Assembly (NCBI GenBank): GCA_030068145.1
Contig: JAPJBO010000491.1
Span: 62,001-126,000, forward strand
DNA: 64,000 bases
Direction: 5' to 3'
From: Diplonema papillatum
Lineage: Eukaryota > Euglenozoa > Diplonemea > Diplonemida > Diplonemidae
Part shown: piece after piece, positions 1,270 through 64,000 of the stretch
Position numbering within the stretch: position 1 is the first letter of the stretch
Layout of the letters: each line of letters begins with the position of its first letter
Notes under the pieces: generated by a model
Seen by the model: the letters and a program-made list of their open reading frames with translations, nothing else
What the model was told of the DNA's origin: nothing
The model's database searches: none
Position numbers and translations under genes: made by a program

Positions 1270-4200
1270 TCAGGCTTGCTTTTTCGCTTGCGGCTGCGAC
1301 TCTTCGCCGTCGTCCCTCGGCCGTTTTTGTGGCTGGGGTGTGCCAACGGAGAGGAGCTTAAGGTGCAGGTAGCTGAATGTTGGCGTGTGGAGGTTGGCGC
1401 AAAGGGTTGATGCTGCGTGCGTCGTGAGCTCGTTGGATGAGCAGAGCAGCGCGGTGCGGATGGCGGACGTCTCGATGGACCCCTTGCAGGAGAGGTCGAA
1501 GTAGGAGAAGGAGTGCACGATCTCCGCGGGGAGGGGCGCCTGGACCAGGGTCTTTGCGACGGAGTCGGATTCGAGCTCGGATTTGCTTTCCTCCTCGTCT
1601 TGCTTCGCCCAATCTGCACGCATCGTCTGCTCCCGCTCGGCGAAGGCCGCCGTCAGGGCCCTGCTGCCGGCCACCCACGCCGCGTGCGCTTCGTCCGCCT
1701 CTTCCGCGGTCAAACCCTCGCTCGCGTCGGCGCGCTCCTTCGCGGCTTTGCTCTCGGCCGCGATCAGCTCCTCCTTCAGCGCCGCCAGCTGCCCCTCTCG
1801 CGCCGCCCGCGCCGCGGCCACCCGCCGGCTCCGCTCGTGCTTCTCGCGGTTCACCTCGTTGATGGCGTCGGAGCAGCTTCGCAAGAACGACCGCACGACA
1901 ACCGATGCGTACCTGTGTGCGCGATAGTGGAAATAGCTGAGCCGCAGCTCTTGAAGAAGAGGAAGCGTGAAAACAAGTTATTTGTGGACGCACGACAACC
2001 GATGCGTACCTGTGTGCGCGATAGTGGAAATAGCTGAGCCGCAGCTCTTGAAGAAGAGGAAGCGTGAAAACAAGTTATTTGTGGACGCACGACAACCTAT
2101 GCGTACCTGTGTGCGCGATAGTGGAAATAGCTGAGCCGCAGCTCTTGAAGAAGAGGAAGCGTGAAAACAAGTTATTTGTGGACTCACGACAACCGATGCG
2201 TACCTGTGTGCGCGGTGCGCGACAGTGTAAATAGCTGAGCTGAAACTCTTGAAGAAGAGGAAGCGTGAAAACAGGTTTTTAACTAGGGACTTTTCTAGAA
2301 GGTCCGTATTTAAAATCTCCGGTTGGCCGTAGGAGCTTTTCGTGTTGGAAGAAGTACGCCAAGTTGCGGTTCGCTATTTTTTTTAGAGTTAAAGTTCGCT
2401 TGAAATTCCGGGGGTTTAGGGTCTCCGTGTGACCGTTCATGAATTTTTACCAAATTCGTGCACGTTTTGCGGGAATTCTCCGTCGGTCACGCACTCCTGA
2501 GACGCGAGCAGTGAACGGAGAAAACACGAGAGGTCGGGTAACCCCCCGAGCTAGCCGCAGAAAGTGAGCGAACGGGCTAGCCCCGGAGGTCACGCCACCA
2601 AACCCAAGGGGGACGGAGGGTCGGAACCCATGCCCCACGGATCTCGCCGCCGAAGCAACGGAAGCTGGTATCCAGCAAGAAAGTGCACCCTCGCACGAGG
2701 GTATCCATGGCCGAACGGCCGTCGAAGGCAGAAAATGATAAAAAGAGTTGCAGGGAGGGCGGGTGGGAAATTTTTCCCCGCGATCCAAGTGCGCACCGAG
2801 GTGTCGTTTGTTTTACCTAGTAGAATTCCCCCGACAAATCAATAGGCTTTGCGGGGGGTTTTGCGGCGGTTTGCGGGGGTTTCGCGGCGGTTTGCGGCGG
2901 TTTGCGGCGGTTTGCGGCGGTTTGCGGCGGTTTGCGGCGGTTTGCGGCGGTTTGCGGCGGTTTGCGGCGGTTTGCGGCGGTTTGCGGCGGTTTGCGGCGG
3001 TTTGCGGCGGTTTGCGGCGGTTTGCGGCGGTTTGCGGCGGTTTGCGGCGGTTTGCGGCGGTTTGCGGCGGTTTGCGGCGGTTTGCGGCGGTTTGCGGCGG
3101 TTTGCGGCGGTTTGCGGCGGTTTGCGGCGGTTTGCGGCGGTTTGCGGCGGTTTGCGGCGGTTTGCGGCGGTTTGCGGCGGTTTGCGGCGGTTTGCGGCGG
3201 TTTGCGGCGGTTTGCGGCGGTTTGCGGCGGTTTGCGGCGGTTTGCGGCGTTTGCGGCGGTTTTGCGGTTTGCGGTTTGCGGCGGTTTGCGGCGGTTTGCG
3301 GCGGTTTGCGGCGGTTTGCGGCGGTTTGCGGCGGTTTGCGGCGGTTTGCGGCGGTTTGCGGCGGTTTGCGGCGGTTTTGCGGCGGTTTGCGGCGGTTTGC
3401 GGCGGTTTTGCGGCGGTTTTGCGGCGGTTTTGCGGAGGTTTTGCGGAGGTTTGCGGCGGTTTGCGGAGGTTTGCGGGGGTTTGCGGGGGTTTGCGGGGGT
3501 TTTGCGGGGTTTTGCGGGGGTTTGCGGGTATGTAAAAGGTTTTGTGACACTTAAATGGTTGAGACACTTTCACGGACACTTTCACGGGTAAAAGAGTGAC
3601 ACTTTCGGAAGGTCTTAGTTTCGTGTTGAGGCTGAATCTTGCCTCATCATGTATGTTTGATGCTAGCATCAAGTCTTCGTCGATTACTTCCCCGCATTGC
3701 ATACTGAAGGCAGTACTCCTCGACAGCGTCCGTGATCAGGAACGGGAACTCGAGCAGCGGGTGCAGGTTCGCCGGCGCTGCCGCCGCCGGCGGCGGGGAA
3801 GACTCCGCCTCGTCGTCGACGTTGATTTCGTCGCCCTTCGCGGTGCCGGGCGCCCTGCGCAGCGCCTCGATGGACCGGGCGCACGACGCCTGCAGCGCCG
3901 CGACCGTCACCAGCTGCGAGCACCCGGAGTGCACGCGGAGCGGCGTCGTCGTCTCCCACACCGCAGGGTACAGCAACAGCACCGACGGGCGGTCCGAGAA
4001 GTGCAGCTCCAGACACGAGTACCAAGTGGTCACAACGAGGTTGATTTGAGACACTTTCACGGGTAAAAAAAGTGACACTTTCGGGAATAAAAGGCTGAGA
4101 CACTTTTACGGGTAAAAAGGACGAGACACTTTCGGGTAAAAAGGTTGAGACACTTCAAAGGTTGGGACACTCTTACGGACACTTTCACGGGTAAAAAAGG

Positions 4201-7169
4201 TGAAACGTTCACGGGTAAAAAATGTGACACTTTCGGGAAAAAAGATTGAGACACTTTCACGGGTAAAAAGGTTGAGACACTTTCACGGGTAAAAAGGTTG
4301 AGACACTTTCACGGGTAAAAAGATTGAGACACTTTCACGGGTAAAAAGATTGAGACACTTTCACGGGTAAAAAGATTGAGACACTTTCACGGGTAAAAAG
4401 ATTGAGACACTTTCACGGGTAAAAAGATTGAGACACTTTCACGGGTAAAAAGGTTGAGACACTTTCACGGGTAAAAAATGTGACACGTTCACGTGTAAAA
4501 AAGTTGAGACACGTTCACGGGTATGTAAACAGGTTTTGAGACACCTTAAAAATTGAGACACTTTCACGGGTAAAAAGGTGACACTTTCGGAAAGTCTTAG
4601 TTTCGTGTTGAGGCGGTATCTTACCGCATCATGTATGTTTGAAGCTAGCATCAACTGCATACCGAAGGCAGTACTCCTCGACAGCGTCCGTGATCAGGAA
4701 CGGGAACTCGAGCAGCGGGTGCAGGTTCGCCGGCGCTGCCGCCGCCGGCGGCGGGGAAGGCTCCGCCTCGTCATCGACGTTGATTTCGTCGCCCTTCGCG
4801 GTGCCGGGCGCCCTGCGCAGCGCCTCGATGGACCGGGCGCACGACGCCTGCAGCGCCGCGACCGTCACCAGCTGCGAGCACCCGGAGTGCACGCGGAGCG
4901 GCGTCGTCGTCTCCCACACCGCAGGGTACAGCAACAGCACCGACGGGCGGTCCGAGAAGTGCAGCTCCAGACACGAGTACCAAGTGGTCACAACGAGGTT
5001 GATTTGAGACACTTTCACGGGTAAAAAAAGTGACACTTTCGGGAATAAAAGGCTGAGACACTTTTACGGGTAAAAAGGACGAGACACTTTCGGGTAAAAA
5101 GGTTGAGACACTTCAAAGGTTGGGACACTCTTACGGACACTTTCACGGGTAAAAAAGGTGAAACGTTCACGGGTAAAAAATGTGACACTTTCGGGAAAAA
5201 AGATTGAGACACTTTCACGGGTAAAAAGATTGAGACACTTTCACGGGTAAAAAGGTTGAGACACTTTCACGGGTAAAAAGATTGAGACACTTTCACGGGT
5301 AAAAAGATTGAGACACTTTCACGGGTAAAAAGATTGAGACACTTTCACGGGTAAAAAGATTGAGACACTTTCACGGGTAAAAAGATTGAGACACTTTCAC
5401 GGGTAAAAAGATTGAGACACTTTCACGGGTAAAAAGGTTGAGACACTTTCACGGGTAAAAAATGTGACACGTTCACGTGTAAAAAAGTTGAGACACGTTC
5501 ACGGGTATGTAAACAGGTTTTGAGACACCTTAAAAATTGAGACACTTTCACGGGTAAAAAGGTTGAGACACTTTCACGGGTAAAAAGGTTGAGACACTTT
5601 CACGGGTAAAAAGATTGAGACACTTTCACGGGTAAAAAGATTGAGACACTTTCACGGGTAAAAAGATTGAGACACTTTCACGGGTAAAAAGATTGAGACA
5701 CTTTCACGGGTAAAAAGATTGAGACACTTTCACGGGTAAAAAGATTGAGACACTTTCACGGGTAAAAAGGTTGAGACACTTTCACGGGTAAAAAATGTGA
5801 CACGTTCACGTGTAAAAAAGTTGAGACACGTTCACGGGTATGTAAACAGGTTTTGAGACACCTTAAAAATTGAGACACTTTCACGGGTAAAAAGGTGACA
5901 CTTTCGGAAAGTCTTAGTTTCGTGTTGAGGCGGTATCTTACCGCATCATGTATGTTTGAAGCTAGCATCAACTGCATACCGAAGGCAGTACTCCTCGACA
6001 GCGTCCGTGATCAGGAACGGGAACTCGAGCAGCGGGTGCAGGTTCGCCGGCGCTGCCGCCGCCGGCGGCGGGGAAGGCTCCGCCTCGTCATCGACGTTGA
6101 TTTCGTCGCCCTTCGCGGTGCCGGGCGCCCTGCGCAGCGCCTCGATGGACCGGGCGCACGACGCCTGCAGCGCCGCGACCGTCACCAGCTGCGAGCACCC
6201 GGAGTGCACGCGGAGCGGCGTCGTCGTCTCCCACACCGCAGGGTACAGCAACAGCACCGACGGGCGGTCCGAGAAGTGCAGCTCGAGAAACGAGTACCAA
6301 GTGGTCACAGCGGAGAGGTCGAGCCCGGTCTTCTCGAGCAGCAGCTTGGTCAGGAATGCCTGGGCGCGCATGGCGAAAGACACGCCTTCGGCGCCCGGCG
6401 GCACCTCGCCCCCGAACAGCATGCCGTCGAGCTTCGACAGCAGCCCGATGTAAGACGTCGGGTGCCGCCGGGCCGCGCTTGGCGCCGCCATCGACTGGAA
6501 GAACAGCAGGTACGCCTCCCGCTGCGGCGCTGCTTTTTCCTCTCCTCCCGCCGCCGCTGCTGCTGCTGCTGCTGCTCCCGCAGTTGGGGAGTCTGCCGAC
6601 GCGTCCGCTTTGCTCGCGGACAGCACTTGGAACGGCTTCACCTTCACGAATGGGCTGATTCCACCTTCCTCCGGCAGCGCCGGCATGTCGACCCAATGGG
6701 AGGTCACGCGGGTGAGCGACGGAGGCAGTGGTTTGCCGCCGCAGCGGTACTGGGTTTCTGCGACGGTGCGCACGCGGGTCTCGTAGAAAAAGGTCGTCTG
6801 CCGGGGCTGCGGCTTCGGCGGCGGCGGCGAAGGCAGCTTGTTCAGCGCGCTGGCGACCGCCTTCGGCGCCGTGAAGGCGGGGGAGGCGGCTTTGCGCGTC
6901 ACAGGGGACGGGACGTACTGCTGCTGCTGCTGCTGCTTCAGCTGCTGCTGCTGGACTGCCAGCAGGAAGGGCGCGGCGGCGGCGGCGGCGGCGCCGGGGG
7001 TAGTCGCGGCGGCGGCGGCGGCGGGGCTGTGCTTCGCCTTCGGGCTGGCCGCGACGGGCTTCACCGACGGCCTCCCCGGCAGGGTGCGGGCCAGGGGGCC
7101 CGGCCGTATCATCTGGCGCTGCGCGGGGCTGCCGGAGCCGACGCGCGGCGGCGTGATTCGCTGGCTCAT
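1270..7169 (-). CDS. CCAR1/DBC1-like protein, two exons
   Basis: The exons are 7169-5980 and 1912-1270, giving 610 residues. The donor (CG|GTATGC) and acceptor (CACACAG|GTACGC) join in phase. The N-terminus is Pro/Ala/Gln-rich with runs coded by CAG and GCC repeats. Residues about 280-325 match the conserved core of the DBC1 domain of CCAR1/CCAR2 (pattern TGxDLSxxTxWY...LLxPxVW). A charged coiled-coil-like stretch begins exon 2. Residues about 530-570 resemble the degenerate EF-hand near the CCAR C-terminus (SYFDLSCKGSI). The tail is basic (KRPRDD...AKKQ) and could be a nuclear localisation signal. In animals, CCAR proteins are nuclear coregulators of transcription and splicing; that role here is inferred. 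The SAP domain of animal CCAR1 was not seen, so the protein is short for the family. The intron is 4.07 kb and full of repeats, and the gene start is duplicated upstream, so the true start could differ. Confidence 0.8.
1894..2285. repeat. 97-bp tandem array repeating a 3' splice site
   Basis: Four units start at 1894, 1991, 2088 and 2185, with an exact 97-bp period and few differences. Read on the minus strand, each unit carries the intron end (CACACAG) and the first bases of CCAR-like exon 2 (GTACGCATCGGTTGTCGTGCG). Only the copy at 1894-1914 continues into the exon. The array therefore offers up to four candidate acceptors in a row. Confidence 0.85.
2380..2445. repeat. dispersed GGAGACCC-box repeat inside CCAR-like intron
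   Basis: The segment contains TTTAGAGTTAAAGTTCGC, then GAAATTCCGG, then TTTAGGGTCTCCG and TGACC. The same order of blocks recurs at 7240-7303 and 24230-24295, and shorter versions occur near 12797, 20690, 53010 and 53555. Copies sit in front of two gene starts and inside introns. Confidence 0.7.
2852..3530. repeat. 10-bp minisatellite (TTTGCGGCGG)n
   Basis: About 65 units of TTTGCGGCGG run with an exact period of 10. They become degenerate towards 3400-3530 (TTTGCGGGGG and TTTTGCGG variants). All frames on both strands stay open because the unit has no stop codon. It lies in the CCAR-like intron and is not coding. Confidence 0.95.
3596..4052. pseudogene. duplicated end of CCAR-like exon 1 (copy 2)
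   Basis: This minus-strand copy of the 3' part of exon 1 covers the DBC1-domain end (LELHFSDRPSVLL) down to the donor. The donor here reads A|GTATGC instead of CG|GTATGC. It is nearly identical to 4578-5008 and 5895-6305. It lies inside the intron and is cut off upstream where 26-bp repeats begin. If spliced in, it would disturb the protein, so it is called an exon relic. Confidence 0.85.
4053..4575. repeat. 26-bp minisatellite, first array
   Basis: The unit is GTTGAGACACTTTCACGGGT followed by AAAAAG, with a 26-bp period (for example 4271 to 4297). Arms of the array carry variants with missing segments. The same array recurs at 5010-5893, with the exon copy at 4578-5008 between them, so exon and array were duplicated together. 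Confidence 0.95.
4578..5008. pseudogene. duplicated end of CCAR-like exon 1 (copy 1)
   Basis: A second intronic copy of the exon 1 end, minus strand, with an intact GTATGC donor. It matches 5895-6305 almost base for base up to about residue VTTWYS, where the 26-bp repeat interrupts it. Confidence 0.85.
5010..5893. repeat. 26-bp minisatellite, second array
   Basis: The same 26-bp unit as 4053-4575, containing internal higher-order duplication: the block with the GTATGTAAACAGG variant occurs near 5500 and again near 5836. It ends directly at the real end of CCAR-like exon 1. Confidence 0.95.
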
Positions 7170-18949: not shown

Positions 18950-19168
18950 ATATCATGCAGGGTCAAAACCTTGTGTCTTTTTGGAAATGGCCAAAAAAAA
19001 AAATTCCGGAAAAAAAATGGGTTTTTTGAATTTTAAAAGTTTGGAACAAACTCTGCAGTAATTTTTGAGGAAGTTGAGCAAAAAAAATTTTTCCCAAAAA
19101 AAATTTAGGGCTCCATCGGCCCCGCGGGAGCGTTTTAAAAGACACAAGGTTCTGACCCTGCATGATAT
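18950..19168. mobile_element. MITE M1, copy 1, about 27-bp terminal inverted repeats
   Basis: The ends are inverted repeats: ATGCAGGGTCAAAACCTTGT and onward to GTCTTTT on the left, AAAAGACACAAGG...TGACCCTGCAT on the right. The 160-bp interior is A/T-run-rich with no ORF. Copy 2 is at 63592-63809 and a solo right end is at about 20117-20148. Outside the shared core, both flanks are again inverted (ATATC / GATAT), so no direct target-site duplication is visible. Confidence 0.85.
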
Positions 19169-38540: not shown

Positions 38541-39569
38541 AACAATCTTGTACTTGTTCGCCATCGGCCTCCGCGATATTTAACCTTGGCAAAGGGATAT
38601 TCATTCCTATCCTGGTCGATCCGAGCAAAACTGAGGCAGTCGGCAAGCCGTCTCGCATGGACGATCCGAATAGGTCCAGACGTTTCTAACAATCTTGTAC
38701 TTGTTCGCCATCGGCCTCCGCGATATTTAACCTTGGCAAAGGGATATTCATTCCTATCCTGGTCGATCCGAGCAAAACTGAGGCAGTCAGCAAGCCGTCT
38801 CGCATGGACGATCCGAATAGGTCCAGACGTTTCTAACAATCTTGTACTTGTTCGCCATCGGCCTCCGCGATATTTAACCTTGGCAAAGGGATATTCATTC
38901 CTATCCTGGTCGATCCGAGCAAAACTGAGGCAGTCAGCAAGCCGTCTCGCATGGACGATCCGAATAGGTCCAGACGTTTCTAACAATCTTGTACTTGTTC
39001 GCCATCGGCCTCCGCGATATTTAACCTTGGCAAAGGGATATTCATTCCTATCCTGGTCGATCCGAGCAAAACTGAGGCAGTCGGCAAGCCGTCTCGCATG
39101 GACGATCCGAATAGGTCCAGACGTTTCTAACAATCTTGTACTTGTTCGCCATCGGCCTCCGCGATATTTAACCTTGGCAAAGGGATATTCATTCCTATCC
39201 TGGTCGATCCGAGCAAAACTGAGGCAGTCGGCAAGCCGTCTCGCATGGACGATCCGAATAGGTCCAGACGTTTCTAACAATCTTGTACTTGTTCGCCATC
39301 GGCCTCCGCGATATTTAACCTTGGCAAAGGGATATTCATTCCTATCCTGGTCGATCCGAGCAAAACTGAGGCAGTCGGCAAGCCGTCTCGCATGGACGAT
39401 CCGAATAGGTCCAGACGTTTCTAACAATCTTGTACTTGTTCGCCATCGGCCTCCGCGATATTTAACCTTGGCAAAGGGATATTAATTCCTATCCTGGTCG
39501 ATCCGAGCAAAACTGAGGCAGTCGGCAAGCCGTCTCGCACGGACGATCCGAATAGGTCCAGACGTTTCA
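38541..39569. repeat. 147-bp satellite, seven copies
   Basis: Seven units start at 38541, 38688, 38835, 38982, 39129, 39276 and 39423, with an exact 147-bp period and only two or three base differences. The unit begins AACAATCTTGTACTTGTTCG. Because 147 is a multiple of three, both strands show long open frames. A diverged single copy is at about 39685-39790 (TGTACTCGTTCGCTATCGGC), probably the founder. Confidence 0.95.
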
Positions 39570-39965
39570 ACCTTAAACCCCAGTGAAGGAGCAATGATTA
39601 AGATTTGAAAGCATCTCCACTTCTCTTACCACTCATCGGTTTCAGGAACTTTTAAACCCTCTCTTCAAAGTTCTTTGCATCTTTCCATCACTGTACTCGT
39701 TCGCTATCGGCCTCCGGGAGACACTTAGCCTTGGCAGAGGGATACCTGCCGATTTGCTCAGCGTTCCCAAACTGAGCGACTCATGCTAGCAAGGAATTAA
39801 CCAACATGGCTCGTCGAGGAAACACGGGACTCTCACTCTGTAGATACCGGGAAGTACTAAATGCAAATGAGTACCACCAGAAATCGTCATTTTACCCTAT
39901 TTGGGGTGTACTTGGGAAGTTCTTAGTGTAGTAGTGTAGTAGTGAGTTAAGTTTTCTACGGTGGA

Positions 39966-40265
39966 TCACACCATTACAATCAATTGTTGTTGCGAAAAAG
40001 AAAGACGCGCACCTTCGTCGGGTTGCTTTTCCTGGTCGCCTTCGTTCTCGCTGTCTTCGGGCTCGCCTTCCGCCCGGCGAGTCACAGTGGCCAGCCTCTT
40101 CAGCAGCCAGCTGTACTCCGATCGCTCTTTCTCGTCAGTCTCCTCCGCAGCCGGAGAGGCAACAGGCGTGTCGTCTGCCGGGGCTTCGAAGTACAGAACG
40201 TCGGCGCTGCCTTCAGAGAAGCTGACGGCTTTCTTGAGGCGCTGGGAGAGCACGTCCAGAGTCAT
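39966..40265 (-). CDS. short acidic protein or first exon, unknown
   Basis: From the ATG at 40265 the frame gives 99 residues: MTLDVLSQRLKKAVSFSEG, then an acidic Pro/Glu-rich part. Codon use is GC3-rich, like the other host exons. A good donor (GACGAAG|GTGCGCG, about 40012) suggests this is exon 1 of a longer gene, but the next exon was not found. The function is unknown. Confidence 0.45.
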   Translation of the reverse strand: MTLDVLSQRLKKAVSFSEGSADVLYFEAPADDTPVASPAAEETDEKERSEYSWLLKRLATVTRRAEGEPEDSENEGDQEKQPDEGARLSFSQQQLIVMV

Positions 40266-40394
40266 CTCGGTCGGTTTGTGCGTGCTTCTCGGGTGTTTCT
40301 TTGTTGGTTGTGTATGTGTGCGTGAGCGTGTAATGCGGATTGCGGTTGCTTGTTTTCTGGTGTGATTTGAGGTTAGGTTCAAGACGCGGTTGAG

Positions 40395-40510
40395 GGGGAC
40401 GGAATAGATATGTGATCAACACCGCACACCACGGTCTCGTGTGCGCCATGTTTCGGTCATTTAAGCCACGGACACGTAAAGGCGCGGAACCTGAGTGCCT
40501 GCAGACGCAT
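40395..40510. repeat. R1 fragment
   Basis: Contains ATATGTGATCAACACCGCAC, CCATGTTTCGGTCATTTAAG and GCGCGGAACCTGAGTGCCTG. Confidence 0.65.
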
Positions 40511-40859
40511 GTCTCTTCAAAGGACATGTGGAGCAGGAAAGGCGAAAAGGTAGAGAAAGGGAGTGTAAGCCTCTCCTTTTTCGTACCTTCCCGAAGTAGA
40601 ATCCTCTCCGGAAGCCAAGATGCATGTACAAGCCACCCACTTGGTACGAGGTGGTTCACACGTCACACAACACGCGATAAAACGTGTGAAATCACGTGTC
40701 GTTTTCGTGCAAGACGCGACATAACGTGTGCAATTGTGCGTTATCTTCATCACAAGTGGGTCCAGACGCAGCTGGGTGAGTCGCCCTTGTATACGTTCAG
40801 ACCCCTTTTTCCGCCATCTTCGCACACCTCTTCTGATCGACTTCTAAATCCCGAGGGGC

Positions 40860-41480
40860 ATGAACACAACCCCTCAAACCAGTACACCTCCATCTGCATC
40901 CACCAACCTCCTCAAACCTGCACTATCCACTCATCGAGGGTGCGGTGCACTTTCAGCTACGTGCACTTTCAGCTACCCCGCTAGCCAGCATCGTCCCTCA
41001 AACCAAAACAGCTTCACTCTGCATCGACCCACCTCCTCAAACCTGCACTATCCACTCATCGAAGATGCTTTACATTTTTAGCTACCCCGCTAGTCAACAT
41101 CGCCCCTCAAACCAGTTCTACGTCATCAAGCACTTGTGCCAGCCAACCCAGCATGCTCACTCATCACGAAGATGCATTGGTTGTATGTAGCGACACGCGA
41201 CCAGCAGAGAAGATGCACGCCAACATTCGTAGCGACCCTCAGACCTCTCGCACCCCTCATACCAGTACTTTCTGTACCTGCCAACCCAGCACGATCACTC
41301 ATCATGAGAAGACAGCACCTGTTCCCCAGAGAAGATGCACTCTAACTTTCGTAGCGACCCTCAGACCTCTTGCAGCGGCCCCGCATACCAATGCAGTCTA
41401 TCGACACAGATTGCTGCTCCATAACAAGTTCAAACCAGTACCACTCATCAAACACCAGCCAACCCAGCACGCACTCTAGC
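40860..41480. repeat. diverged tandem repeats, TC/CA-rich
   Basis: Units of about 90-115 bp share CCTCAAACCAGTAC, CACCTCCTCAAACCTGCACT, ATCCACTCATCGA, AGCTACCCCGCTAG and AGCGACCCTCAGACCTCT. Frames running through it are not convincing genes. Confidence 0.7.
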
Positions 41481-41990
41481 CTTTAGCGACACTCAGACCT
41501 CTCACTGCAGCACTGCAGCCCCTTCGAAGAGTTCGCGACAATAAAAGAAAAGCAGAACAGGGGTCGACACAAGCTTCAATGATGTGTGCGTGTGTGTCGC
41601 GCACAGAATACGAATCTTCTAAGACCTCAAGGATCTTATAAAACAAAAGACGAAGGGCACGTAGCAAGATGGGGGGGATGTGTGGAAGAAGATGAAAAAA
41701 GAAGAAGGAAGAAAAACAAAAAAACGGCGAAAGTCGCGAGGGCAAGGCGGACTTTCTGGGCTGATTTCTTTTTATTTTTTCATGTTGTGGGAAGGGGGGT
41801 TTGCGGGGGGGGGTTTTTTGGTTGCGAGGACACGCTGGGGTGCCCTCGGTCTGTCTTTCGTTGATCCTGCGGTCTTTACTCGGGAAGAGGGAAGGGGCCG
41901 TTCATAGCGACGTTGCTTTTTGATCCTTCGATGGCTCTTCCTAACCTAGACAAGCAGAATTGTCTAAGGGTTGGATTATCACCCACGAAC

Positions 41991-42024
<34 letters not shown>

Positions 42025-42028
<4 letters not shown>

Positions 42029-42300
42029 CTGGTTTTACCCTGCCGACAGGTTCGCCCATGCCAACAGTAGTTGAGTACTGCTGGAGAATCCAGCCGCATG
42101 CTTCTACAGATCGTATGGACCACCCACCACCACAGAATGCACCCTGTCCGTGGGGACTTGGGGTTGTATCTTGGTGAGCCGGTCCACCCCCCAGCTGATA
42201 CACTGCTGTAGTATACACACACTGCTGTTGTACACACTGCTGTAGTATACACTGCTGTAGTATACACTGCTGTAGTAAACACCGCTGTAGTACGGTAACA
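42025..42300. repeat. R6 copy 2 with expanded tail
   Basis: Matches 14440-14645. Its last block (CACTGCTGTAGTATACA) is expanded to about six units at 42205-42295. Confidence 0.75.
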
Positions 42301-42629
42301 CAGGAACTGGAGCAAAGCGCAGGCACCACCCGAGCCCACAGCCGGAGAATTCGGGTGGGTTGAGGCGGGTCCTTCGAAGACTAATTTTTTTCTTCCCTTC
42401 CCTTTCCGATGATGATTACTTCGGGTGGCGTGGCGAGCTCGAATACCCACGCCAAGATCTGAGTGCAATGACCGAAGACTCAAGCCGAGACCGAGTGAAA
42501 TGAGGCCAGAAGCTGGCTGCGAATTGCCTTCTGGAGGTGATTTCGCCTTGTGTTCGCATTTTGCGGCCGTCCGACCACTTTTTCTGGCTTTCCGGAGCGT
42601 TTTGGGGGAGGCCACCCGGTTCAACTCCT

Positions 42630-42800
42630 GATAGCCTGTGCTGGCCTGTGATAGACTGCTGATAGACTGCTGATAGACTGTCCGATGCACTTCCAGGAGA
42701 AAACAAAATGTTTCCCCCGAAGAGCATGACAGACACCCTGTATGTAGATTCGTCAAGCCTCGCAGATTTCCTCGGGAAATCCGTGACTGGCTCAATCTTG
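42630..42800. repeat. dispersed repeat R7, copy 1
   Basis: An inverted match to 49565-49680: AAACAAAATGTTTCCCCCGA, ACACCCTGT and GTCAAGCCTCGCAGATTTCC. It is preceded by three GATAGACTGCT units. Confidence 0.65.
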
Positions 42801-42999
42801 GCTTGCAGACCTGCCGCAAATTCCCGGCCGCACAGAACCTTCTCACGACCGGCCCACCTCCGCGAGTGATGGTCGGGAGGCTCTGCAAGACTGTCCCGAG
42901 CCCCGGCCCTGCTGAGGAGCTGCAAGAGGAGGGTAAGCAGGGGCTTCAAACGGTTTCATCGCGAGGCTGGAACACGACCAGATGTGACCGTGGTAAGGG

Positions 43000-43350
43000 C
43001 CTCCCTCGTGCGGTGATGAGGGACGAAAACTGTCCTTCCACCCGAGAAGAACCCCCCTCGGCTTCAACAATTTTGTCTTCTAAGAAGGACGCGGGAATCG
43101 AATGTGGCCATGATATGTCTCTTCCTCGTGCATTGACCAGGGACGAACGGTCCTTCCACTCCGAGAAGCACCCCCCTCGGCTTCAACAATTTTGTCTTCT
43201 AAGAAGGACGCGGGAATCGAATGTGGCCATGATATGGCTCTTCCTCGTGCATTGACCAGGATCGAACGGTCCTTCCACTCCGAGAAGCACCCCCCTCGGC
43301 TTCAACAATTTCGTCTTCTAAGAAGGACGCGGGAACACGATCATGAGAGC
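43000..43350. repeat. about 118-bp tandem repeat, three copies
   Basis: Units share CCTCGGCTTCAACAATTT, GTCTTCTAAGAAGGACGCGG and CCTCGTGCATTGACCAGG. A fourth worn unit continues to about 43460. Confidence 0.85.
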
Positions 43351-44099
43351 CGCCTTGCCTTGTAACGCTGCGGGCCCTCTTCTTTCTCTCATGATGAGGG
43401 TCTTCCTCGTGCAGTAGTAAGGGGACGAATGCCGACACGGCGCGGGTCCTTCCCCTGCAGGAAGAACCCCGTATTTCCCGCGTCAACGGGTTTGGGTGTG
43501 TGTCACGAACGCCGTCACTTCCACTTCGAAAAGAACTCCCGACGATTTTGTCGTGTGAAAACGACCGCGTTCGGTTGTGTTCCTCGCCCGTCGTCTAATT
43601 GCGAGGGGGAAAGCCCCTCCCTCGATGAGGAAAGGACGAGGGCACGAACGACGCCACGCGTAAAACGGCTTTTCTCGTGTGAGAAGGTACGCTGTGGGTT
43701 TCCTGCCCAGTGCCCTAAACGTCAACGCTGAGAGATCCGTTCAAGCGCGGGTAAACTGCGGGGGTAAACATGACTCTCTGAAGGTAGCCAAATGCTTTGT
43801 CTTCTAATTAAAGACGCGCATGAATGGACCAATGAGATTCCTTCTGCCCTTACCTACTATCTGGTGAAACAGCAGTCCAGGGAACGGACTTCGAACTGGC
43901 CGCGGGGGAAAGAAGTCCCTGTTGAGTTTGACTCTAGTCTGACGTGTGTGCGTGAGTGACACTTCGGTGCCGGAGCTACAACAACAACAGGAGTTGACGT
44001 CTGGTTTGTCAGGCGGCTGTTCGCAACTCGACACAGGACCACCCATGCTACGAGAGCGCAGGCAACTCCGCCTCGGGGAGAAAAAGGCCCCTTACAACC

Positions 44100-55937: not shown

Positions 55938-57892
55938 TCACTTCTGCATCTTGTCGAGGGACTCGGTGCTCTGCTGGACGACCTTCGACTGCGCGTAGAC
56001 GCTGACGTCAATTCCTGCTTTCTTGTCATCGGCGATGCGCTCGCTGATCCAGTTGTATGTCTCTCGAAGGCCGTCCTCCAGCTTGATGGACGGCTCCCAG
56101 CCGAGCACCTTGCGGATGAGCGAGTTCTCTGAGTTTCGCCCCCGGACACCCTCCGGTCCCGGTATGTGCTTCAACGCCATCTTCCGCCCGGTGAAGCTGA
56201 TCGCGAGGTTGCCGAGGTCGCTCATGCTCAGCATGAAATCGCTACCCAGGTTAAGCGGTTCGTGGAAGTCGGACTTGCACAGGCGCATGATTCCCTGCAG
56301 ACGAGGAGAAATATTGTAAAAAGAAAGTTGAGATTCGAACAGGAGGGTTTCCCGGTAATGAAAACTTTCGATCTGAGGGGAAGGCGCAGTGGTTGGTGAG
56401 CTGGCCCGTTCCCGGGTCGCTGTATGGCATCAACGAGCTGGTGCACTGCCTCGTTCCATCATCTTGAAAGTACCCAGGCGTGGTGCGCAAGAATGAAACC
56501 CGCGGCAGACCTAGAAAGTAGTGCACTCTTTTGATCCTCATCAGCTGATGACCAACCGCTTCAACGCAAAGGCTTCCTTGCCTATCCTTTTGGCACGGCA
56601 GCCAGCCCTCGCGCTTATCGTTATAACGCGGGCGCTGCGCACTGAGGAGAGATTGGGAATGTCGCTGTCGGGGGCCACAGGCCGTGCCCGTTCGGCATGA
56701 TGCTTCCTCGGCCTTGCAGTACAGATTTGTCCCAACATCCCCGCTGCCCCCTCCTTCCCGTATACTATAGCAGGGCTTATCATGAGAAGCCCCCGGAACC
56801 CGGCATTTCGACTGGTTCGAATCTCTCTGCAAAGAAATCATACCTCGACGCAGTCGTTGACGTGGGTGAAGGATCTGGTCTGTTTGCCGTCACCCCACAT
56901 TTCGAAGCTGTCCGTCGAGCACGCAGCCTTGCGGCAGAAGGCAGCAGGTGCCTTTTCTCTTCCTCCCTTCCACGTGCCCTGCGGGCCGTACACGTTGTGG
57001 AAGCGCGCGATATACGTCTGGTGGTTAGGTGGTTAAGTGTTAAAGCACAATAATCTGCATGGGATCCCCTGGTTCCTCAATCGTCGATGGGTTTGTCTTC
57101 GGTGACTCAGTTTGCATGGGGGCAATTACGTTGTTGTTGAAACTGTCTGCACCTGTACGCGGATCCCTCGTCGAGGAATGACGGGGGCGGGGGGGGGAAC
57201 GGGGCACTGCCTTCTTTCCAGGGATACTTGTATCGGCTGCTCCTTCGATTATCTACCCGGAAAACGCATAAGCACCTCAGGGGCACACGGGTGGGTGGAA
57301 ATCTCCCGTTTTCCCCCTGCGATTTCCCGACAGGGATGGAGGAGGCAGTATGCAAAGAAGGGCTGGATACCTTCATGTTGAAGTCCTGTCCGTAGTGCTT
57401 GACGAGCTCTTCAGTGGCGAGCTTCTCAAGGCCGTACGCGTCCTGCGGCTGCGCGGGCCATGCATCAGCTTCCTTCAGTCCCGGGTTTGCAGGGTCCTCT
57501 TGCTTCGTCTCGTTGTAGACGCATGCAGACGACGCGAAGAAGAAGAGCTTGACTCCGTTCGACCGTGCGGCCTCCATCACGTTGAACGAGATCATGACGT
57601 TGTTGTAGAAAAGCACGCTGTGGTTCGACTGGATAAAGCCCATCCCTCCCATGTCAGCCGCCAAGTTGTACACCTCCGAGCACCCTGCTGTCGCTTCTTT
57701 GCAGTTCTCCAGCGTCCTGAGATCAAGAAGCTTGAACTCGTTGCAGAACTCGTCCTCCTTCATAAATTCGTTTCTCTTCCAGTCTGCCACCACGACGTAC
57801 GCACCTTCGTTCTTGAACCTCTTCGCAAGATGCGACCCGATGAAGCCACCTCCTCCGCACACACAGATCTTGCGCTGTCCTTCGGTCGCCAT
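55938..57892 (-). CDS. GME: GDP-mannose 3,5-epimerase, three exons
   Basis: The exons are 57892-57371, 57017-56844 and 56294-55938, giving 350 residues; all introns are GT-AG and phase 0. It is an extended SDR-family enzyme: NAD-binding GGGGFIGSH (residues 13-21), NLAADMGGMGFIQSNHSV, catalytic Cys in SSACVY (Cys124), YGLEK (Tyr153, Lys157), then in exon 2 RFHNVYGPQGTWKGG with REKAPAAFCRKA, and in exon 3 GPEGVRGRNSENSLI. These match plant GME closely and all catalytic residues are kept. The enzyme turns GDP-D-mannose into GDP-L-galactose (and GDP-L-gulose) in the cytosol, for ascorbate and cell-surface sugars. Start 57892 fits the plant alignment after the variable N-terminus. Frames reading on past exon 1 are intron sequence. 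Confidence 0.95.
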
Positions 57893-58721: not shown

Positions 58722-59264
58722 TCATACCTTGCATCTGCGCCTCTTCAGGGGCTGCTCATCGCCCCGGGACTCCGCACTGGTTGCGCCGCTCTCGGGTGTG
58801 CGGTACAGATGCTTCAACCTGACGGGGTTGTAAAACTGCACCGCTTCGACACAATCGGGCTCCTTCAAAACCCTCTTGCTGTAGTGACGGGCCATCGACT
58901 CTGTGGCCCAGTCTCCTACGTCCTGGAGAGCCGTCAGGTTGATGCCCGCCTTCAATAGCGTACAGCAGCCACCTATTCTGGCACTGTGGGTGCAGAAGGG
59001 CCTGCGGTTGCGCTGCGACTTGTGCCTCCCGTTCAACGTCTCCAGAATGCCTCTGGGACCCGCCCCTCCACACAGGGCCTTGTAGAAGGAGGGGTAGGTC
59101 GTGAAAGGACACAACAATTCGTTACCTGCAGCCAGACGCTTCAGGATTCCGAAAACCTTGACCGGACAGTACGGAACGGAGCGTTCGCCGGCGCCAGAGG
59201 CCCCTGCGCTCAGCCTCGGCATGGACAGAGGAGGGACTAGGTCTATAGCTTCGATCTCTAGCAC
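58722..59264 (-). pseudogene. tyrosine recombinase C-terminal fragment
   Basis: A 180-residue frame. The catalytic part shows THSARIG (HxxR), GDWATES (Trp at the His/Trp position) and RHYSKRVL (Tyr nucleophile); an Arg in KSQRNRRP may precede. It is not close to the recombinase at 33437-34354, so it comes from another element, of crypton or DIRS type. The preceding frame (59448-59122; LQLLAEHFTLLRTSSMQSLR) may be its shifted N-terminal part. No RT is nearby and no ends were found, so it is probably a relic. Confidence 0.6.
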
Positions 59265-60363: not shown

Positions 60364-60870
60364 TCAGAAAAGCCGGAACCGCTTACTGTTCCTCTTCGTT
60401 GGAACGCGGACAGAAGAGGAGGGTTCGGGGGGTTCGGGTTCGCTCTTCACTTCGTGCTGAGCTGGCACGCCGCCAGACAGGAGAATGAAGGGGTTCTGAG
60501 ATACCGCCTCCTCTTCACGGAGATTGTAGGGGTCAGGCTCACCCCCTGTAACGTTCAACCCGTTGTATGCGCTTTGCGATACAACACGTGGTGTGAACTC
60601 AGCAAGGCCCATCAGCCGAAGGTGTGGGGTCGGGTGTTTTCCTTTTCCTTTCTGGTGAACCGTCTTTGGATCCTGGGGGAGTGAAGTCATATGGCTCCAG
60701 GACCTCGTCGACATCAATCACCAAGAACTCCTCTGTCTTGCACACGAGCTCCTCTTCCTTGCACATGACAGCTGGTTCTGCATCGATGACCAGAACGTTC
60801 TCACTGTCGGCTGGAGTCGAATGACTTGCTTCTGCGGGAGGATTGCAAGTCTCCTCGGGGGGAAAAACTT
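60364..60870 (-). pseudogene. possible acidic ORF with frame change, unknown
   Basis: On the minus strand from about 60868 a frame encodes a repeated acidic motif (NVLVIDAEP...EFLVIDVDEV) and reaches KRKTPDPTPSADGPC. A second frame, 60717-60364, continues with PYNLREEEAVSQNPFILLSG and ends SKRFRLF. The two look like one broken gene. It lies downstream of the RT-USP element and could be related to it, but nothing proves this. Confidence 0.25.
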
Positions 60871-60945
60871 AGTTTAATGTTTAGGCAGAGTACTGCCTCG
60901 CATGCATGTTTGATGCTAGCATCAAGTCTTCGTCGAAGAAAGTGT
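60865..60945. repeat. copy of the sequence bordering the duplicated CCAR-like exon
   Basis: The block CTTAGTTTAATGTTTAGGC, then ATGTTTGATGCTAGCATCAA, then GTCTTCGTCGA matches 3618-3686 (beside exon copy 2) and more weakly 4597-4660 and 5914-5975. A short stretch of that intron is therefore a dispersed repeat. Confidence 0.65.
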
Positions 60946-61302
60946 AAAATAAAATAGGGGAAAGGGAAAAGGGTCGCAAGGAGTGTAAGACTCCGCAGGT
61001 AGGGTCTGGAACCTTGAGGGACTATTCCTCTGTATTCTTTTTTTCTTTTTTTCACCGCGGTGTTGTGTGCACCTCGTTCTTTGTCTCTGGTTTCGCTCTT
61101 GAACGCATACCAATCCAAAGTTAGAGCTCTTCAGTGGGTCCTTTGGACGGGGACTTTCGGTCCTGTTCCGGTGCTTTCACAACTTTCTGGTTCCAATGTT
61201 TATCGCATCCTTCCTTCGTCAGATTAAAAAAAGGGGGTTCTGGTTTGGGTTGTGGCTCGTAACCAACCGCCACGGGGCACTGCTTCCACTGAGTGAAAGT
61301 GT

Positions 61303-63600
61303 TTATATCTTCTCAAGGGAGACGATGTAACCGTTCGAAACGAACTTTCCGGCACATGCTTCCCATGAGAGCACTGATACTTGCTGGTCGTCATAACACA
61401 CCCATTCGTCTGCTTCTTTCATAATGGTGTAATAGTGCCCAGCATGTACTTTTCCAGTGTGGATTATGAAACCCGTCACCATGTACGTGTCTTCGCCAAT
61501 CCCAATGGTTGATTGGATTGGTGTGCGGGCTTTCACTTTTATCTCCTCGCCTGTCCTCTTCGACCGTTGGGCCCGTTTCAGTGCCACGTCCATCATATTT
61601 GGAAAGGCATAGACCTCTTTCGAGGAGCCTACCGTCTTTTTTCGGCATGTTGTACAGTCGAGGTCGACATCGGCTGCTCTCTTGTTCTTTACTTTGTTTA
61701 CAAGAGCTTCAACCGTCTCGGTGTAGGAGTTCTCCCTGTTTTTGAGCTCTACAAGGAGAAATGGTTCTAACACCGGCACCGCTGTCGAGGTCTCCTGACA
61801 CACTTTACAGGTGGTTCGCCGTGAGTATGTAACCATCGTTGGGTCATTGTTATCCCCCCTCACGCAGCTTCTCATCCATGTCAGCAGTTCGTGGGCATCA
61901 CGGTGTTCGGAGTCGTTCTCAGTTGTGCCGAAAACGAGACTTCGAATTTCTGCCATCGAACCATGGATGTCACGGCCAGCATCAAAATCCGTGAAAAGTC
62001 GACGGATTTTCAACTGTTCTTCATCCGGACGCTCAATAGTTTCGAGTTGGTTCCGGAAGTTTCGTTTGCGTGCCAGAAATTGGACGCTGGCGGCAAAGAA
62101 GCACGTGTTGCGAACGTTGGTGATGCCGTTGCGGTTGCGTTTGGGAGAACCTGTTGGTTCGTTTGAGGGCGAGACAGTCGTTGTGGTGTTTTCGGGCTCG
62201 GGCGGGTTGGGCGTCTGATGTGGTGGGGAGGTGGGTCGGTTCGGCTGTCGGGTGTTGATGAACGGCTTCTCTTCGTTCGTTGGGCGTCCTTCGTCATAGG
62301 CTTTCCCAACATAGTGGTAAAACTGTGTCAGCACCCGTGCGTCCAGTTCGTACTTGCCGTATGTCTGCACGACAAAAGTATCGAACGTGTGTCGCAGTTC
62401 ACGTCCGGAGAACCCACGATCTCGCAACCGGTAATACACCTTCATGATCTCGACTTTGAGATCAGGCATGTTGTTGCAGATGCGGGCTGCTCGTATCAGG
62501 GCACCTTTGAATATCGAGGTTCCGGTGTTTCGCGGGACCGTCGACTCGGCATGCGTGTATTTGATGGGGTACCATGGAAACTCTTCACCCTTGTCCAGAA
62601 CGGAGAGTCGGATGAAGTTGGCCTTGTTACCCCTCTCAACTCTAACGCGCATTCCCAAGAAGACTACGTCGTCAACGTCTTTCGACGTTTCCGAATATTC
62701 CATGCCGTAGATTGCTTCCGGTGGTGGTCGTGCACTCCAAGTCAGGAAGTCATCGATGAACCTGACGCTGTCGGCGTGGGCTCTGGCTTCTTCATGGCGT
62801 CCTTCCGTGATCAGGCTATCGATGTAAAGCTTTTCACACCAGTAGCAATACAGATTCGCCAGATCTGGGCTTGCGTTACCGCCCATTGGAATTCCAGTTA
62901 CCTGCTGGTAACATTGACCACCGTTCGTCACAAACGTGTTGCCGACAATGAATTCGACCAATTCCCGGATCTCCTCGACGTTGTATGCTGTCGCGTCCAT
63001 CGCGTCAGCATTGCTGAACTCGAACTGCTGCTTCGACCGTCGTGCCTTCAGGTCACAACCACGTTCCGCCTTCGCGTACTCGAATGCTTCCGACACAGCG
63101 AGCATGACGTACTCTACAATTCGCTGTTGCGGAATCTTTGTGTACATTTCTTTGAAATCGAATGTACGTGGGACCTTCTGGCGTAGCCGTGCGTAGTTTG
63201 TCTTAATGTGAACGGCTACGCCGTCAATTGATTCGACGACGAAGAAGCGACGTATCCCCGTCTTTGCCCGAGACGCTTCGTCCTTGCCTTGCAGTGTGGC
63301 TAGAACCAGTTTTAGGATGCCCGATGTCTCTTGGTGGGCTGGTGTTGTTGAGGCGCGCGTCTTCAATTGCTTCTTGTTGGGAGTTTTTTCAGCTTTTGCC
63401 TGCTGTTCGTCCGTTTTCTCCGTGTTTCCCTTCTCTGAAACGCCGGCAATGTACCGCATCCGAGGCTCGGGTTTGTGTAGCTTCGGAGTACCATATAGAT
63501 ATGGCAGGATGTTGGAGTGGGTGAAGTTGTGGGACTTGTTGAAGGTTTGGTGTTGCTGGAGAATGTCTGCCATCGAGGTGTCAACATGTTTGTACCATGC
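61303..63600 (-). CDS. RT-USP fusion protein of a Penelope-like retroelement
   Basis: The open frame is 63720-61303 (805 residues), but its first 41 residues are translated MITE M1, so native coding starts at about 63600. The RT spans residues about 70-470: YGTPKLHKPEPRMR, motif A RTFDFKEMYTKIP (Asp188), motif B GIPMGGNASPDLANLY, motif C RFIDDFLTW (Asp323/Asp324), thumb GALIRAARICNN and RDRGFSGRELRHTF. These patterns resemble Penelope-like RTs. A Pro/Thr linker (480-530) leads to a full ubiquitin-specific protease (531-805): Cys box NVRNTCFFAASVQFL (Cys540), EHRDAHELL, zinc-binding CxxC at 638/641 and 689/692, His box AGHYYTIM (His762), WVCYDD (Asp777/778), SNGYIVSLEK. No GIY-YIG endonuclease is present. 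The RT N-terminus is missing, cut at the MITE, so this copy is probably immobile though both enzyme cores look intact. Confidence 0.85.
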   Translation of the reverse strand, partial: AWYKHVDTSMADILQQHQTFNKSHNFTHSNILPYLYGTPKLHKPEPRMRYIAGVSEKGNTEKTDEQQAKAEKTPNKKQLKTRASTTPAHQETSGILKLVLATLQGKDEASRAKTGIRRFFVVESIDGVAVHIKTNYARLRQKVPRTFDFKEMYTKIPQQRIVEYVMLAVSEAFEYAKAERGCDLKARRSKQQFEFSNADAMDATAYNVEEIRELVEFIVGNTFVTNGGQCYQQVTGIPMGGNASPDLANLYCYWCEKLYIDSLITEGRHEEARAHADSVRFIDDFLTWSARPPPEAIYGMEYSETSKDVDDVVFLGMRVRVERGNKANFIRLSVLDKGEEFPWYPIKYTHAESTVPRNTGTSIFKGALIRAARICNNMPDLKVEIMKVYYRLRDRGFSGRELRHTFDTFVVQTYGKYELDARVLTQFYHYVGKAYDEGRPTNEEKPFINTRQPNRPTSPPHQTPNPPEPENTTTTVSPSNEPTGSPKRNRNGITNVRNTCFFAASVQFLARKRNFRNQLETIERPDEEQLKIRRLFTDFDAGRDIHGSMAEIRSLVFGTTENDSEHRDAHELLTWMRSCVRGDNNDPTMVTYSRRTTCKVCQETSTAVPVLEPFLLVELKNRENSYTETVEALVNKVKNKRAADVDLDCTTCRKKTVGSSKEVYAFPNMMDVALKRAQRSKRTGEEIKVKARTPIQSTIGIGEDTYMVTGFIIHTGKVHAGHYYTIMKEADEWVCYDDQQVSVLSWEACAGKFVSNGYIVSLEKI

Positions 63601-63809
63601 AAGGTCAAAACCTTGTGTCTTTTTGAAAATGGCAAAAAAAAAATTCCGAAAAAAAATGGGTTTTTTGAATTTTGAAAGTTTGGAACAAACTCTGCAGTAA
63701 TTTTTGAGGAAGTTGAGCAAACTTTTTTTTTTCTAAAATTTTTTTCAGAGCTCCATCGGCCCCGCGGGAGCGTTTTGAAAAGACACAAGGTTTTGACCCT
63801 GCATGGTAC
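63592..63809. mobile_element. MITE M1, copy 2, at the 5' break of the RT-USP element
   Basis: About 90% identical to 18950-19168. The inverted ends run GTACCATGCA.GGTCAAAACC on the left and GGTTTTGACCCTGCATGGTAC on the right. RT coding sequence stops at its left edge and does not resume on the right. Confidence 0.85.
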
Positions 63810-63866: not shown

Positions 63867-64000
63867 GTTAAAGTTCGGGGAACAGCAAAGTTCGGGCGAA
63901 GCTAAGTTCGGGCAATGCTAAGTTCTGGTTAAGCAAAGTTCGGGTGAAGCTAAGTTCGGGCGAAACAAAGTTCGGGCGAAGCAAAGTTCGGGCGAAGCTA
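63867..64000. repeat. 17-bp tandem repeat at window end
   Basis: About eight units of AAGTTCGGGCGAAGCTA with variants (GGCAATGCTA, GGTTAAGCA). The array runs off the window. Confidence 0.9.

Follow-up and report, generated by a model that had tools for sequence, protein, structure and literature searches.

A Penelope-like element of Diplonema papillatum predicted to encode a GIY-YIG endonuclease, a reverse transcriptase and a ubiquitin-specific protease in one protein

Introduction

Penelope-like elements (PLEs) are mobile elements whose RNA is proposed to be reverse transcribed at a nicked target; a hammerhead ribozyme has been reported in many of them and is perhaps not obligatory. Here, we analysed a window of 64,000 nt (the whole stretch of DNA under study, on contig C491) from Diplonema papillatum, in which a truncated PLE copy encodes a reverse transcriptase (RT) joined in frame to a ubiquitin-specific protease (USP), and compared it with copies elsewhere in the genome, which appear to encode an N-terminal GIY-YIG endonuclease in the same protein. 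A diplonemid (Euglenozoa), rather than an alga, is the probable host.

The permuted PLEs Chlamys and Naiad reportedly carry an N-terminal endonuclease. By that description of their layout, the Diplonema elements share with them an N-terminal GIY-YIG domain followed by a PLE-type RT and differ in their C-terminal USP. Chlamys PLEs occur in Ectocarpus according to the available text of a paper that also cites the work on permuted PLEs (PMC12477816). Poseidon of Anolis, as described in the accessible part of its report (PMC11167929), has one open reading frame (ORF) with an RT and a C-terminal GIY-YIG domain, an AT-rich preferred cut site and a hammerhead ribozyme, and its tandem or partial-tandem copies give rise to pseudo-long terminal repeats (pseudo-LTRs). 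Measured against Penelope and Poseidon as portrayed there, the Diplonema element is alike in encoding RT and GIY-YIG in one ORF and in its pseudo-LTRs from tandem or partial-tandem copies, and unlike in the N-terminal position of GIY-YIG, in the C runs at 7 of 13 junctions, in the lack of any ribozyme recognised by Rfam and in the added USP. The presence of RT and GIY-YIG in one ORF together with pseudo-LTRs leads us to file the element provisionally as a PLE, the RT trees holding unnamed relatives only.

Proteases of a comparable kind are known from other retrotransposons. The NeSL and Utopia long interspersed nuclear elements (LINEs) carry Ulp1-like domains (PMC4640811, available portion) and thus likewise combine a retrotransposon with a cysteine protease of the ubiquitin-like-specific kind; on that account, however, they are LINEs of the restriction-like endonuclease type with an N-terminal Ulp1, whereas the present element is a PLE with a USP. 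Ubiquitination-related domains are mentioned for giant planarian Gypsy elements in the text available to us (PMC6431247). The D. papillatum genome paper lists LINE-1, SLACS, R2, jockey, TATE, MULE and Helitron types in the part at hand, and the word 'ubiquitin' is absent from its main text (PMC10161547). No PLE–USP fusion was described in the partial texts searched, which included neither supplements nor Craig et al. 2021 on the permuted PLEs, so a published mention is possible.

Domain organization of the element protein

The window frame at 61303..63720 (minus strand) is open throughout and 805 aa long. It contains Pfam UCH (PF00443) at residues 532–788 (E=1.7e-18, model positions 2–243 of 254) with the USP signatures expected of such a domain (Cys box, HRDAHE box, two CxxC pairs, HAGHYY and WVCYDD). 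The RT part is weak against the general Pfam model RVT_1 (E=0.073) and scores 19.7 bits (E=3.8e-4) against NCBIfam group_II_RT_mat, far under the curated cutoff of 300; its motifs A (TFDFKEMYT), B (GIPMGGNASPDLAN) and C (RFIDD) nevertheless align with those of relatives. A single uninterrupted frame with RT motifs A–C and a USP, as originally proposed, is therefore present.

Genome searches covered the 271-Mb assembly (2,910 contigs). With the best 56 of 5,571 candidates scored in the protein search, so that counts are lower bounds, there are at least 57 genome matches to the window protein (its own included), and a stop lies inside the match in 2 of the 57. They fall into family 1 (at least 25 rows at 97–100 % identity, in 24 places plus one further piece), family 2 (at least 5 rows at 79 %, C191 holding one such match) and family 3 (at least 27 rows at 71–72 %). 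Among the 25 family-1 rows, 11 have a frame 1,448 aa long. Counted from the first conserved Met, the element protein is 1,408, 1,422 and 1,441 aa long in families 1, 2 and 3 (one protein each), and the family-1 full-length unit of 5,726 nt encodes the 1,408-aa form.

Pfam detected an N-terminal GIY-YIG domain in these three proteins, P0024, P0025 and P0026 (E=5.3e-6, 3.0e-4 and 7.6e-6, that of P0025 falling short of the 22.6 cutoff at 21.5 bits); the frame of each also carries RT motifs and a C-terminal UCH (E=3.5e-18, 3.8e-18 and 8.2e-16). In P0024, GIY-YIG lies at 209–296 and UCH at 1135–1391, and a motif scan found GIY-YIG in 25 of 54 rows, always at residues 37–254. The full-length protein is thus predicted to have the domain order GIY-YIG–RT–USP. 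The USP is an extra domain at the C terminus of a PLE whose endonuclease is N-terminal, and the window copy lacks GIY-YIG because it is 5′-truncated. The original prediction of a Penelope-like RT–USP fusion holds as to the in-frame fusion, which the transcriptome-derived P0013 also carries in one chain, as expected of one gene rather than two separate ones; its further claim, that a deubiquitinase had replaced GIY-YIG, fails, as P0024 has both GIY-YIG and UCH. A USP standing in place of the endonuclease is accordingly ruled out, since full-length copies keep an N-terminal GIY-YIG.

Features of the window copy

BLASTn aligned the window copy to the tandem unit of contig C510 at 99.49 % over 2,746 aligned columns (unit positions 2982–5726 of 5726). 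The window copy is a 5′-truncated family-1 PLE, and only the element's 3′ part lies inside the window. Because element homology starts at 63594, the first ~42 residues of the frame (63595–63720) are flanking DNA, and the idea that all 805 aa belong to the element protein was discarded. The features are as follows (all on the minus strand).

60857..63594, minus: 5′-truncated family-1 PLE copy, unit positions 2982–5726 of 5726 (BLASTn 99.49 % to the C510 tandem unit)
61303..63720, minus: 805-aa open frame comprising flank (residues 1–42), RT, linker and USP, with the junction at 63594
63595..63720, minus: flanking DNA that is in frame by chance and not part of the element (element homology ends at 63594)
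62275..63594, minus: RT part present in the window copy (alignments with relatives)
63157–63159, minus: RT motif A Asp (alignments with relatives)
62881–62895, minus: RT motif B (alignments with relatives)
62749–62757, minus: RT motif C IDD (alignments with relatives)
62128..62274, minus: Pro-rich, poorly conserved RT–USP linker (dN/dS 0.18–0.48 and aa identity 0.42–0.44 between families)
61306..62127, minus: USP domain (peptidase C19; Pfam UCH, E=1.7e-18, residues 532–788)
62101..62103, minus: predicted catalytic Cys (NTCFF), invariant in 7/7 aligned element USPs
61888..61902, minus: RDAHE (QDAH-like) box (alignment of element USPs)
61798..61809, minus: first CxxC of a putative zinc site, the second Cys not conserved in P0012
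61645..61656, minus: second CxxC of the putative zinc site, both Cys invariant in 7/7
61435..61437, minus: predicted catalytic His (AGHYY), invariant in 7/7
61387..61392, minus: predicted catalytic Asp pair (CYDD), the second Asp invariant in 7/7 and the first Asp, or Asn in P0008
60857..61302, minus: element 3′ untranslated region (UTR), whose counterpart elsewhere is the pseudo-LTR before full-length copies (comparison of copies)
60857..60933, minus: conserved 3′ terminus, ending TTTTTCCCCCC in the window copy (conservation seen across three families plus one further sequence)

Further families and gene models

A genome search with Pfam UCH, in which 149 of 935 candidates were scored, pointed to additional families; families 1–3 (59–67 bits) fell outside this 149-row list. 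Element copies are suggested by 112 of the 149 matches (76.5–85.9 bits, with model positions from 1 or 2 through 240 and most rows in sets sharing one score), and the remaining 37 are mainly host-like. All four of the element-like matches that were fetched proved to lie in frames of the element that carry UCH as well as RT motifs (UCH E=5.7e-23, 1.5e-20, 3.3e-23 and 1e-21); GIY-YIG is near the 22.6-bit cutoff in three (22.9, 22.4 and 23.1 bits), and the fourth is without the N-terminal part. By eye, a C2H2-like motif follows the USP in all four, and the frames of L016, L049, L050, L051 and L052 end in this way. The fusion is therefore found in one frame in families 1–3 and in two further family types of the D. 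papillatum genome. A single odd copy or an assembly artefact is ruled out by the at least 57 genome matches and this wider UCH search.

Annotation of such loci appears to be error-prone. In the model P0014 only the start of the USP appears, while a close copy in L016 has a genomic frame for all of it (UCH E=1.1e-20), and we think that the gene models mis-splice these element loci. P0001, an RT–USP protein of D. papillatum that is 78 % identical to the window protein, is named 'Ubiquitin carboxyl-terminal hydrolase 26', a caution that some Diplonema genes annotated as ubiquitin hydrolases are transposon copies. Four further annotated D. papillatum proteins (P0003, P0005, P0006 and P0007) join element RT to unrelated sequence, three being named UNC93-like, dynein intermediate chain and STIP1-like; these are probably mis-joined gene models.

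Such mishandling, P0014 with most of its USP missing included, is what could lend weight to the view that RT and USP are separate genes or that one copy passively transduced a host USP. We regard this as highly improbable, given the at least 57 scored matches in several families, the presence of both domains in the transcriptome-derived P0013, the purifying selection on the USP and a second RT lineage that is also RT–USP (see below).

Copy structure and integration sites

Tandem units occur on C510 (5,726-nt spacing) and C2819 (5,850 nt). All eight single full-length family-1 loci fetched (L009–L016, L011 being short of the last 16 nt) have a partial 3′-end copy directly upstream of the full-length unit, 92 nt long in L011 and 379–388 nt in the other seven and beginning at unit position 5339 in four of the eight. 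It matches the pseudo-LTR arrangement known from PLEs. Five 5′-truncated copies were also fetched (the window copy, L002, L008, L019 and L020).

A 22-base piece of the 3′ terminus has 196 genome occurrences (reversed control, 0), a count in which full-length copies with a pseudo-LTR figure twice and the window copy, with one extra T, does not figure. The 3′ ends of copies are mostly TTTTCCCCCC. A run of at least four Cs adjoins 7 of the 13 printed 5′ junctions (L008, L009, L010, L014, L016, L019 and L020; a raw count), suggesting that C tracts are often the site of integration; no C run adjoins the 5′ junction of the window copy. No clear target-site duplication was seen at the junctions compared, the shared letters being mostly C runs.

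Sequence conservation between families is seen in the ~70 nt at the 3′ end. Two of four 3′-terminus sequences fold better than shuffles (z about −3) and two do not, the z-scores being −3.0 (window copy), −1.3, −0.9 and −3.5. Rfam returned no hammerhead at gathering score in the window, L009, L017, L021 or L028, and none at E<=10 in L009 2900–9300 or L028; a loose CTGANGA...GAAA scan gave three forward-strand matches in the unit, one within the pseudo-LTR part. A ~70-nt relative of the element 3′ terminus (85.7 %, with similar hairpins) lies at window 3614–3683 (minus strand) and is perhaps a remnant of another family.

The 5′ junction of the window copy is also the site of a 37-nt inverted repeat (63592–63628 and 63773–63809, 92 % complementary, 144 nt apart), which has a further match with three mismatches at 18950 and resembles a small inverted-repeat transposon. 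A 16-nt tandem repeat, AAAGTTCGGGCGAAGC, in about 51 copies, stands beside the element at window 63868–64000 and at L001 4065–4886.

Among L009, L021 and L025/L027, ORF codons 1–120 have low synonymous divergence (proportion of synonymous differences, pS, 0.11–0.34 vs mostly 0.5–0.8 downstream), and in codons 61–120 pS is no higher than its nonsynonymous equivalent, pN, or slightly above it. The 1-kb 5′ UTR is 75–90 % identical between families 1 and 2. The low divergence of the 5′ UTR and the first ~120 codons may mark an RNA signal for template recognition or exchange between families.

Relatives and phylogeny

Of the 23 proteins returned by the protein search for relatives, six have a precomputed UCH. 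P0013, from a EukProt transcriptome (prefix Rhum, read as Rhynchopus humris, so probably from another diplonemid), holds RT and UCH in one chain (UCH E=2.5e-21), with no GIY-YIG detected in it. In P0018 (JGI, 1,235 aa), UCH (E=2.3e-26) occurs together with GIY-YIG and RT motifs, and P0145 has RT and UCH (E=5.6e-27) on L032, a contig in a gammaproteobacterial metagenome-assembled genome that is presumably a stray eukaryotic piece. Contigs L029–L031 encode proteins with GIY-YIG and an RT-like part and without UCH. A scan of 79 distinct further relatives of 482 detected GIY-YIG in 21, a chromodomain in one and Ulp1 in one, namely P0126, whose related RT is accompanied by an Ulp1 peptidase at the C terminus (PF02902, E=3.9e-6). 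Viral-contig scans revealed no relative and PHROGs no match; a protein search with profile A1 gave two matches, one of them a query row, and profile A2 against solved structures had as its best hit a GIY-YIG intron endonuclease (E=0.13).

In an RT tree of 46 rows, from which P0012 and P0011 (short RT piece only) were left out and in which all relatives are unnamed, USP bearers appear twice: in a nine-row clade around the Diplonema proteins (support 100/100) and as P0018 with P0145 (99/96), both from metagenomic contigs, which nest in a group with P0146–P0148, proteins that lack a USP. When counting USP bearers for a one-clade test, we left P0014, P0015, P0019 and P0020 of the first clade ungrouped; the P0014 type has a genomic USP, P0015 ends finger-like, and P0019 and P0020 have no USP in the given proteins. 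One RT clade of the seven USP bearers plus these four was rejected by the approximately unbiased test (p-AU 0.00036), a result to be read with the provisos that the grouping was chosen once an earlier tree was already known and that P0018 and P0145 are odd in composition. A USP tree of 10 element and 16 host-like USPs, which has several long branches and carries a long-branch warning, does not reject a single clade of element USPs (p-AU 0.198), and no element USP stands beside any particular one of the 16 host USPs. RT–USP elements thus appear to form two RT lineages. Capture of the USP twice, its exchange between PLE lineages, and a single gain with frequent loss are all compatible with these trees.

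Conservation and predicted function of the protease domain

In an alignment of seven element USPs (P0024–P0026, P0008, P0012, P0013 and P0018), all seven keep the Cys, His and second Asp, and the first CxxC is not invariant, being incomplete in P0012. The USP is an intact-looking predicted deubiquitinase that keeps the catalytic Cys/His/Asp-Asn boxes in its UCH domain. It is like cellular USPs (peptidase C19) in these boxes and in the overall domain; unlike them, it follows an RT in the same frame of a multicopy element and groups beside none of the 16 host USPs compared. Use of the domain other than as a deubiquitinase, be it as a tether to ubiquitin or ubiquitinated factors or in a structural or processing role in a polyprotein, would suit so divergent a USP and the incomplete CxxC of P0012; the invariant catalytic residues speak against it, and Pfam found no ubiquitin-like domain in P0024–P0026 (E<=0.01) for the USP to process, making self-processing unlikely. 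We consider such a role improbable.

Between pairs of families 1–3, dN/dS was 0.095, 0.114 and 0.116 for the USP, 0.059, 0.067 and 0.075 for the RT, 0.295, 0.481 and 0.180 for the linker and 0.256–0.350 for the first 204 codons. L049 vs L050 gave 0.064 for the RT, 0.108 for the USP, 0.590 for the linker and 0.318 for the post-USP spacer, with pS saturated and dN/dS not computable at the finger-like end. The USP is under purifying selection, and its contrast with the linker inside one polypeptide is clear despite the approximate values.

The kinship of element USPs to particular USP types by best match is weak, since single members of the diplonemid clade give USP21 (window protein) or USP36 (P0013) as best solved match and the clade profile gives USP12/46 (2.5e-21), with USP8/Ubp8 entries also matching; P0018 and P0145 are closest to USP15 in sequence searches. 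USP12/46 and USP8/Ubp8 have been linked to histones, and these profile matches, together with the fusion of the USP to a DNA-cutting enzyme and, to a small degree, the C2H2-like motif seen by eye at the end of the L016 and L049–L052 frames, could point to chromatin as the target, the chief alternative reading. The endonuclease or RT (in one group, the C2H2-like motif) would bring the USP to the target, where it would deubiquitinate H2A/H2B or repair factors and so ease integration or expression. We hold this to be unlikely, if worth keeping in mind: family 1–3 proteins end with the USP, the C2H2-like motif shows no strong conservation in the L049–L050 comparison (40 codons, aa identity 0.47), the best solved match shifts with the query, and in the USP tree the element USPs do not pair with any particular host USP.

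Starting from what the sequences themselves establish (the fusion, full-length multicopy families, tandem and pseudo-LTR structure, catalytic residues and purifying selection on the USP), we tentatively prefer, with a little less than even confidence, a PLE with a GIY-YIG–RT–USP protein whose USP takes ubiquitin off the element's own protein or ribonucleoprotein or off host factors engaging it. Element RNA would be reverse transcribed at a nicked target, as proposed for PLEs generally, and often at C tracts; the USP, because it is in the same polypeptide, would act in cis, within the complex to which it belongs, stripping ubiquitin from that complex or from the host factors that engage it; and this would spare the complex from ubiquitin-dependent turnover. 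The USP dN/dS, near RT values and below the linker, supports a working USP. The occurrence of RT–USP in two RT clades and of Ulp1 in a third lineage would be expected if ubiquitin and SUMO proteases were useful to such elements. It is conceivable, if rather doubtful, that at least two PLE RT lineages took up a USP, and a third Ulp1, as a functional component of the mobility protein, these retroelement deubiquitinases countering ubiquitin-based host restriction, most recognisable USPs of one flagellate then being transposon-borne.

Several points weigh against cis-acting deubiquitination of the element complex. Selection shows that the domain matters and not which substrate is cut, and the dN/dS values are approximate as USP synonymous sites are near saturation (pS 0.69–0.73). 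In the abundant families, a chromatin or target role would account equally well for the finger-like motif behind the USP. Finally, UCH was found in none of the 79 further relatives scanned of 482, implying that the USP is dispensable for most such elements. Should deubiquitination of the element complex be true, a deubiquitinase would join the enzymes carried by retrotransposons, ubiquitin control of PLE mobility in euglenozoans would be suggested, and the case, directly testable by a Cys-to-Ala change, would be one of an element equipped against host turnover or chromatin.

Other features of the window

Elsewhere in the window, a weak Phage_integrase match (58722–59264, minus strand, E=6.6e-4, below cutoff) is perhaps a tyrosine-recombinase fragment of a DIRS-/Crypton-like element, and a piece of a NAD-dependent epimerase gene lies at 57107–57892 (minus strand, E=8e-30). 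About 3,600 scattered 28S pieces are given for the D. papillatum genome in the consulted part of its paper (PMC10161547), and three scattered pieces of large subunit rRNA, on both strands, lie at window 39383–43828.

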